From positions 1-64,000 of the forward strand of contig NCRB01000004.1 in the NCBI GenBank assembly GCA_002894665.1: 64,000 nt of DNA, written 5' to 3'. The notes under the pieces are model-generated. The model did not search any database, was not told the origin of the DNA, and was given only the letters and a program-made list of their open reading frames with translations. The position numbers and the translations under genes were made by a program. Positions 33,616 through 42,844 of the stretch are shown piece by piece (the stretch's first letter is position 1; each line of letters begins with the position of its first letter). This stretch comes from Salinivenus iranica (GTDB lineage: Bacteria; Bacteroidota; Rhodothermia; Rhodothermales; Salinibacteraceae).

Positions 33616-34770
33616 CTACGCAGCCGCCCCGGTGGCGTGCATGCCGGCCACGTCCTCAAAGAGCGCGTCGTAGGCACCGATCTGTTCGGGCCAGTCCAAC
33701 CGAGCGGGCATGTCGCGGAGGGTGTCGGGGGGCAGCGGGCGCTCCGCTCCGGTCACAATCTCTCGGAGACTGTCGAAAAGCTCGTCGGTGTCCTCGTACA
33801 GGATGGGCGCGTGGAGGAGCGGGCGGTGGTGCGTCTCGGGAATGAGCTCGGGATAGCTAAGCCGGTTGGGCAGCAGCGGATGGCACCCGCAGTAGATGGC
33901 CTCCTGGATGGCAACGCCGAAAAACTCGTGCCGCGCCGTCGACACCACCACGTCGGCGCGATGGAGGAGGCGACTGTACGCGTCGAAGTCCTCGGCGTAG
34001 CCGTAGTGGAGAATGCGCTCGGCGTACCGCTCGAAGGCCCGGTCAAACGCCGCCGGCGGGTCCCGAAAGTGCTCCCCCGCCAGGATGAGCTCGAAGTCCG
34101 CCCCCACGTCGTCGAGCCGGTTCATGACCCGGAAGAAGGCCTCCGGATTCTTGGCGTAGTTCCAGCGCTGATTCCACAGCACGATGGGGGGACTCGACCG
34201 ATCGGAGCGGCGGGTCCGTTCGCCGGCGTGGGCGTCGTGGGCCCCTAGGTCGAGCCCCGGGTGCAACACCGTGCTCTTCTTGCGCAGGGCGCGCACCGTG
34301 TGCAGGTTGGTAAAGTCCGGGAAGTCGCGCAGGAGCTGCGGCAGCGCCTCGATAAACTCGTCGAAGTGCGACTCTGTGTTGAATACGACCCGGTCCGCCG
34401 CCAGGGCCGACAGGTAATTCGTGATGGCGTAGGCCCGTTCGCGCTCTTCGTCCGGGGGCCGCAGGTCGGTGAGGCGGTTTTCGTGGAAGTACAGCACCAC
34501 CGGCACGCCGTCGAGGCGGGGACGCGCCAGCGAAAGCACTGCGGGCAGGTTCACCATGCTGGTCGCAAACACCACATCGGGCGCAAACCCGTCCGTGACG
34601 GCCGCCCGCGCTTTTTCGGCCAGGGTGACCCCGCCGCCCTCCATTCGCCAGCGCCAGAAGCGCCCCGGCATTGTGAGCGCGCGCACCCGGTGTCGGCTGT
34701 GCTCCGCGATCCCCTCGAGGAACCGCTGATGCGTGCCGCGAAACCAGGGCTCAAGGGCGAGGATGTTCAT
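33616..34770 (-). CDS. Putative tRNA-queuosine alpha-mannosyltransferase (QTMAN/GTDC1-like, DUF3524 + GT4)
   Basis: 384 residues. The N-terminal domain has the DUF3524 pattern: ILALEPWFRGTHQRFLEG, MPGRFWRWRMEGGG, LYFHENRLTDLRPPDE and NYLSALAADRVVFNTESH. The C-terminal GT4 domain has LWNQRWNYAKNPEAFF, LAGEHFRDPPAAF and EFFGVAIQEAIYCGCHPLLP. Vertebrate GTDC1, with the same architecture, attaches mannose to queuosine in tRNA-Asp, and bacterial homologues exist. The likely job is mannosylation of queuosine in tRNA; another small acceptor cannot be excluded. Followed upstream by a 79-residue gene on the same strand. Confidence 0.8.
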   Translation of the reverse strand: MNILALEPWFRGTHQRFLEGIAEHSRHRVRALTMPGRFWRWRMEGGGVTLAEKARAAVTDGFAPDVVFATSMVNLPAVLSLARPRLDGVPVVLYFHENRLTDLRPPDEERERAYAITNYLSALAADRVVFNTESHFDEFIEALPQLLRDFPDFTNLHTVRALRKKSTVLHPGLDLGAHDAHAGERTRRSDRSSPPIVLWNQRWNYAKNPEAFFRVMNRLDDVGADFELILAGEHFRDPPAAFDRAFERYAERILHYGYAEDFDAYSRLLHRADVVVSTARHEFFGVAIQEAIYCGCHPLLPNRLSYPELIPETHHRPLLHAPILYEDTDELFDSLREIVTGAERPLPPDTLRDMPARLDWPEQIGAYDALFEDVAGMHATGAAA

Positions 34771-34799: not shown

Positions 34800-35039
34800 C
34801 TACTGGTCGTTCCCGAGCCGCTCCTGCAGCGCGTCATCCTCCTCGGGAGTGGCCGGTCGCACAATCGCGATGCTTCGTTCCTGGAGGGCCGATCGGAGCG
34901 ACGGGTCGCGCACCTCCTCCGGCGTAATGAGCGCCTCCTCCCCAGGCCCGATTCGGAGCACCCGCGACGTCATGGAGACGCGCACCTCCTCGGATCCGTT
35001 GTTCGTAATGAGCATGCCGCGGCGATCTCGGTCCGCCAT
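34800..35039 (-). CDS. Small protein of unknown function
   Basis: 79 residues, MADRDRRGMLITNNGSEEV onward, with RVLRIGPGEEALITPEEVRD in the middle and an acidic C-terminus (TPEEDDALQERLGNDQ). The pattern of short beta strands suggests a small beta-barrel or beta-sandwich domain; no family was recognised. No signal peptide or membrane segment. It lies 29 bases upstream of the mannosyltransferase-like gene on the same strand and is probably co-transcribed with it. Coding bias fits the neighbours. Confidence 0.6.
   Translation of the reverse strand: MADRDRRGMLITNNGSEEVRVSMTSRVLRIGPGEEALITPEEVRDPSLRSALQERSIAIVRPATPEEDDALQERLGNDQ

Positions 35040-42768: not shown

Positions 42769-42844
<76 letters not shown>

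Follow-up and report, generated by a model that had tools for sequence, protein, structure and literature searches.

A QTMAN-like glycosyltransferase in a halophilic Salinivenus genome in which no tRNA-type TGT, QueF, QueG or QueH was found

The window, by which we mean the whole 64,000-nt stretch of Salinivenus iranica DNA analysed here, encodes a protein that on sequence grounds is a member, by descent, of the bacterial QTMAN_N/GT4 family. This family is already named in Pfam, is common in the class of the window's organism and is found in several other phyla. Because the substrate pathway was not found in the genome and residues that are otherwise invariant differ, we do not file the protein as a working queuosine mannosyltransferase. 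Our favored reading, which we hold tentatively, is that, once queuosine had been lost, an ancestral Q-tRNA glycosyltransferase was retained together with QueA to act on another acceptor, and that the enzyme would still be active.

The gene is a single ORF on the minus strand with an ATG start. Pfam places QTMAN_N, which we take to be the former DUF3524, at residues 2–173 (E 2.1e-51, 174.5 bits versus a cut-off of 25) and Glycos_transf_1 at residues 192–315 (E 9.8e-10). The features of the locus are as follows.

33616..34770, minus strand: QTMAN-like glycosyltransferase, 384 aa (ORF, Pfam and AlphaFold2 model)
34252..34767, minus strand: QTMAN_N domain (PF12038), residues 2–173 (Pfam)
33826..34197, minus strand: GT4 half (PF00534), residues 192–315, holding R202, K207 and E282/E290 (E-x7-E) (Pfam and alignment counts)
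34732..34734, minus strand: residue 13, T for S (S in 96/96 readable relatives) (alignment)
34462..34467, minus strand: residues 102–103, DL for the commonest YP, inside FHENRLTDL (alignment)
34153..34155, minus strand: residue 206, A for D (D in 97/97 relatives) (alignment)
34800..35039, minus strand: 79-aa gene, predicted small alpha/beta protein (ORF, alignment and structure prediction)

This is the one QTMAN_N match in the window's genome (G000), the assembly of which is 98.76% complete; the domain has no match in any of 14 control genomes. An AlphaFold2 model with 18 bacterial members aligned as input (pLDDT 89.0, pTM 0.88) predicts a fold that, by structure comparison, matches those of GT-B GT4 enzymes such as glycogen synthase (2bis), MshA (3c4q) and PimA (2gej), with TM-scores of 0.66–0.70 by query length, whereas sequence identity is 9–16% across the 50 rows listed. 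The sequence of the window protein alone found no match in the PDB, and the family profile matched two glycosyltransferases there, in the GT4 half only. The residues R202, K207, E282 and E290, which we take by analogy to be those of the GT4 donor site, are all retained. The initial annotation had called the protein a QTMAN homologue with DUF3524 and GT4 architecture, and this assignment is borne out by the Pfam domains, the model and the fold matches: QTMAN_N scores above its curated cut-off, and the GT4 half, the GT-B fold and the E-x7-E pair are present. Three residues invariant in bacterial members are changed, however, and a supply of Q-tRNA (TGT plus QueG or QueH) was not found in G000. 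The likeness to animal QTMAN (GTDC1) is at the level of domain architecture, QTMAN_N plus a GT4 half. The sole tRNA gene detected in the window is a tRNA-Ala (GGC) at 42769–42844.

In a sample of the phylum, QTMAN is present in 80 of 296 genomes, 76 of them in the window's class and four outside; 216 genomes do not match, and the 20 of these that were listed include no member of the class. A scan of named genomes, from which the best 80 of at least 586 loci were kept, found members in Rhodothermales (and other Rhodothermia), Balneolales, Chloroflexota, Saprospirales, Marinimicrobia, KSB1, Calditrichota, Desulfuromonas and others. These proteins share the architecture and have a similar length, with 37–74% identity among those best 80. 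A PF01702 TGT match is present in 41 of the 43 QTMAN-positive genomes tested from this set, whereas G000 has only DpdA; four of the 43 come from the window's class, including one (Longimonas) from its family. The two without a match, L159 and L169, are metagenome assemblies whose completeness is not stated. Because TGT is common generally, the figure of 41/43 supports a link between QTMAN and Q only weakly. None of the 80 loci has TGT, QueA or QueG beside QTMAN (flanks of at most 3 kb per side, often less), so gene context does not link the family to QueA.

Fifteen genomes of family f15 carry two QTMAN paralogues each (for example, G053 with L002 and L056, and G142 with L007 and L057). In a quick tree, for which no support values are stated, one paralogue falls with Saprospirales and Marinimicrobia and the other with the Balneolales/Rhodothermales branch. 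The two may decorate different tRNAs or different hydroxyls.

The queuosine pathway was searched for in 80 genomes of the window's class (tgt, queG, queA and GluQRS) and in 27 of its family (PF01702, QueF, QueC, QueH and QTMAN_N). Absence here is absence at search sensitivity, and the fact that several families are jointly missing from the same near-complete genomes argues that it is real. Matches to tgt (TIGR00430) at E <= 0.001 occur in 76 of the 80 class genomes and exceed the cut-off in 74. No match was found in G146, G194, G198 and G302, all of the window's genus, and in G000 one TGT-domain protein reaches 26.1 bits against a cut-off of 306.75, with no match listed for the other. The only further genome of the 80 below the cut-off is G287, where the gene is split across two contigs. 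With PF01702, a full TGT is found in 11 of the 27 family genomes, a fragment in G310, DpdA alone in G000 and no TGT in G146, G194, G198, G302 and G314; the TGT-positive members of the genus, G299 and G318, both keep QueF too. Exactly five of the 80 class genomes lack a queG match (TIGR00276), namely G000, G146, G194, G198 and G302. QueF is above the cut-off in nine of the 27 family genomes, every one of them among the 11 TGT-positives, and was not found in G000 nor in five other near-complete TGT-negative genomes of the genus. QueH was found in none of the 27 and was therefore rejected as a substitute for QueG. QueC at E < 1e-60 is present in the nine QueF-positive genomes and in G000 and was not found in G146, G194, G198, G302 or G314; matches of 25–37 bits elsewhere in the genus (Pfam cut-off 22) lie in 470–650-aa frames of TGT-negative genomes and were judged to be other proteins.

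We considered whether G000 has a divergent tRNA TGT, but DpdA accounts for both of its proteins with a TGT domain, encoded on contig C90 (E 2.2e-153 and 1.4e-113). They belong to a Dpd-type 7-deazaguanine DNA-modification island at G000:C90:52000-62000 (L040) and G000:C90:24000-32000 (L115), which contains two DpdA, two DpdB, DpdD, weak matches to DpdC and the QueC copy noted above. An apparent QueE and an apparent FolE2 can also be read there from their sequences. The mannosyl-queuosine initially predicted for tRNA-Asp of this halophile therefore fails the check that the initial annotation itself had set, a queuosine pathway in the genome: no TGT other than DpdA, and no QueG, QueH or QueF, was found in G000.

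QueA, by contrast, was found when tgt, queA and queG/queH were checked as the initial annotation had proposed, although its motifs are altered. It is present in all 80 class genomes (PF02547; G314 lies outside that sample), and the G000 protein scores 427 bits, above the cut-off. Two QueA proteins occur in 39 of the 80; all sampled genomes of f14, f15 and f16 have a longer (~1030–1040 bases matched) and a shorter (~975–995) form, and G230 has two long ones. QTMAN_N is present in 22 of the 27 family genomes, among them all six TGT-negative ones of 98–99% completeness (G000, G146, G194, G198, G302 and G314) and the less complete TGT-negative genus members G316, G317 and G319. No QTMAN match was found in TGT-negative G315 (83% complete) and G320 (93%); in G304 (87%) QTMAN was found but neither TGT nor QueF, and in G311–G313 (56–62%) neither QTMAN nor TGT. 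In a QueA tree, G000 and G302 group with TGT-positive G299 (96%), and trees of neighboring genes are weakly supported on the choice between a single and a double loss of TGT. Elsewhere in the class, the one-contig and QTMAN-positive genome G178 has a TGT split over two frames (G178:C1:2356004-2357112), which could reflect either incipient loss of TGT or misassembly.

Conserved positions were defined from an alignment of 99 QTMAN sequences, in which five pairs are identical over the first 300 residues and four of these pairs are one genome twice or nearly so. At 36 sites conservation is at least 97% among the 97 sequences other than G000 and G146. Three of these (S13T, P103L and D206A) are altered in the window protein and none in G146. 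In a leave-one-out comparison the window protein still has the most departures, three versus two for the next six sequences, one of which (L169) comes from a genome without a TGT match. The sister genome G302 shares all three changes, which excludes misassembly of a single genome as their source. Both motifs quoted in the initial annotation are present in the protein, but FHENRLTDL is not the usual motif of the family: of the 97 other bacterial sequences, 92 have Q at position 99 and 67 have Y at position 102, and all 96 that are readable at position 103 have P there, making FHENQLTYP the commonest form. G146 has H14R, as does TGT-positive G013. In QueA, TAGLHF is replaced by PAGLHF (G000 and G302) or KSTLHF (G146, G194 and G198), and GTFRP by GVFRE (G000) or GKSKP across the TGT-negative genomes. 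Both motifs are intact in the solved QueA proteins 1vky, 1yy3 and 1wdi and in the four TGT-positive relatives aligned.

Comparisons of coding sequences indicate that QTMAN and QueA are both under purifying selection in TGT-negative genomes. By the method of Nei and Gojobori, dN/dS for QTMAN is 0.085–0.22 in eight TGT-negative pairs: G000–G302 0.206 (14 synonymous and 9 amino-acid changes), G000–G146 0.221, G146–G194 0.142 (252 codons), G146–G198 0.141, G314–G194 0.124, G146–G314 0.118, G319–G316 0.088 and G314–G316 0.085. Five TGT-positive pairs give 0.046, 0.052, 0.113, 0.030 and 0.064. A binomial test of changes against site numbers, which ignores transition bias and gives rough p-values, yields 2.5e-4 to 3e-41 for QTMAN in six TGT-negative pairs and 1.6e-11 to 1.4e-35 for QueA in three pairs within TGT-negative groups. 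For QueA, dN/dS within these groups is 0 for G000–G302 (17 synonymous and no amino-acid changes), 0.014 for G146–G194, 0.065 for G146–G198 and 0.083 for G194–G198; between the two TGT-negative groups it is 0.14–0.19, and for the TGT-positive pair G003–G008 it is 0.044. The QTMAN gene of G194 is frameshifted by one base within a run of seven G, which may be real or a sequencing error, and is the only two-piece QTMAN gene among the loci compared. We did not adopt faster evolution after TGT loss as a result because the rate tests are mixed for both proteins. For QTMAN of G000 versus G299, two outgroups give low p-values (0.0006 and 0.0002) and the other three do not (0.32 to 1); for G146 versus G299, none of five outgroups gives p < 0.05; and QueA tests are significant in two of four cases.

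QTMAN was reportedly first identified by Zhao et al. in 2023. The animal enzyme is described as a tRNA-Asp queuosine alpha-mannosyltransferase in PMC12518689; PMC11705514 equates GTDC1 with QTMAN and places manQ on tRNA-Tyr in a mosquito, so tRNA preference is not fixed even among animals. Among the matches listed from the open literature, no title or abstract opening concerned bacterial QTMAN or queuosine loss in Salinibacter. Q34 of tRNA-Asp is also acted on by GluQRS. This enzyme is above the cut-off in eight of the 80 class genomes, seven of which are QTMAN-positive (G095, G166, G178, G218, G230, G245 and G253); the eighth, G301, lies outside the phylum sample searched for QTMAN. The two enzymes would compete if they worked on the same Q34, which points to another tRNA for bacterial QTMAN and suggests that tRNA-Asp is a doubtful target for the bacterial family. 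A GluQRS candidate in G000 was rejected: its 216 bits fall short of the 276.7-bit cut-off, and its frame of 495 aa is probably GltX.

The 79-residue gene said to lie just upstream is confirmed, on the same strand as the QTMAN gene and 29 bases from it. Of the 38 genomes of the order that were examined, 33 have a homologue within the QTMAN locus, with both TGT-positive and TGT-negative genomes among them; none was found in the QTMAN loci of the remaining five (G198, G296, G321, G322 and G323) or in the Balneolaceae-like loci fetched. Fifteen positions are invariant across 18 sequences of this small family, and the window's member has no match in Pfam, NCBIfam or PHROGs. A GINS-like identity was rejected, the top PDB fold match having a non-significant E of 0.098. 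Given the frequent adjacency in the order, it is reasonable to suppose that the gene may be a partner of QTMAN.

How might these observations be reconciled? We suggest that the ancestor of the class had a retaining GT-B sugar transferase, which probably glycosylated Q in tRNA. In the window's lineage TGT, QueF and QueG would have been lost, with no QueH at hand, and the QTMAN gene and queA kept. QTMAN and QueA would then have changed at otherwise conserved residues, yet been held by purifying selection. With R202, K207, E282 and E290 present, QTMAN may still be an active sugar transferase; we infer both this activity and the sugar. Its acceptor would now be something other than Q34, possibly the product of the altered QueA, the acceptor and the QueA connection being likewise conjectural. 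Persisting constraint speaks against a dead relic and the residue changes against an unchanged job, which makes a re-aimed transferase the best single reading. Counting against it are the small margin by which the window protein stands out in the alignment, the mixed rate tests, the QueA dN/dS of 0.14–0.19 between the two TGT-negative groups and a gene context that offers no tie to QueA.

Slow decay, in which QTMAN and QueA are disappearing leftovers of a lost Q pathway, seems unlikely to us. The frameshift in G194 and the lack of a QTMAN match in G320 and G315 fit decay and count against the re-aimed transferase, as does a dN/dS that in most cases moderately exceeds that of TGT-positive pairs, the pattern expected of partial relaxation; the changes at family-invariant residues can be read the same way. 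Purifying selection is nevertheless still significant in pairs within the TGT-negative genomes, QueA of G000 and G302 differs by synonymous changes only and, among the loci compared, the broken gene is confined to G194. It is rather unlikely that the bacterial branch was never queuosine-specific, with another acceptor in all these bacteria and TGT loss irrelevant. Such a history would account for the retention of QTMAN without TGT in six near-complete genomes, for loci that adjoin no TGT, QueA or QueG and for the seven genomes that pair QTMAN with a GluQRS competitor, if both act on tRNA-Asp Q34. It sits poorly with a Pfam family named for tRNA-queuosine mannosyltransferase, with the TGT found in 41 of 43 tested genomes and with unusual residue changes that fall in the TGT-negative lineage. 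That co-occurrence, together with the retention and constraint of QueA and QTMAN, would also suit a Q still made by an unrecognised transglycosylase with precursor salvage and mannosylated by QTMAN. We regard this as improbable, since three parts of the pathway (TGT, QueF or preQ1 salvage, and QueG/QueH) would have to be replaced, and the QueA motifs shared by three solved proteins are changed here; TGT is moreover so common that 41/43 is weak evidence.

A more specific and highly speculative form of the re-aimed reading is that QueA and the transferase constitute a two-step tRNA modification needing no 7-deazaguanine, in which a cyclopentane unit is placed onto another aminomethyl-bearing nucleoside and a sugar is then added. 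A candidate acceptor for the altered QueA in such a scheme is 5-aminomethyluridine at the wobble position. If this were true, the product would be an undescribed hypermodified nucleoside.

The Pfam name of the family would lead annotators to mannosyl-queuosine, and the genome contradicts this. QueA and a putative Q decorator that outlive the pathway under selection offer a natural case in which to look for other activities of both enzymes, and the TGT-positive relatives are a good place to look for bacterial mannosyl-queuosine.
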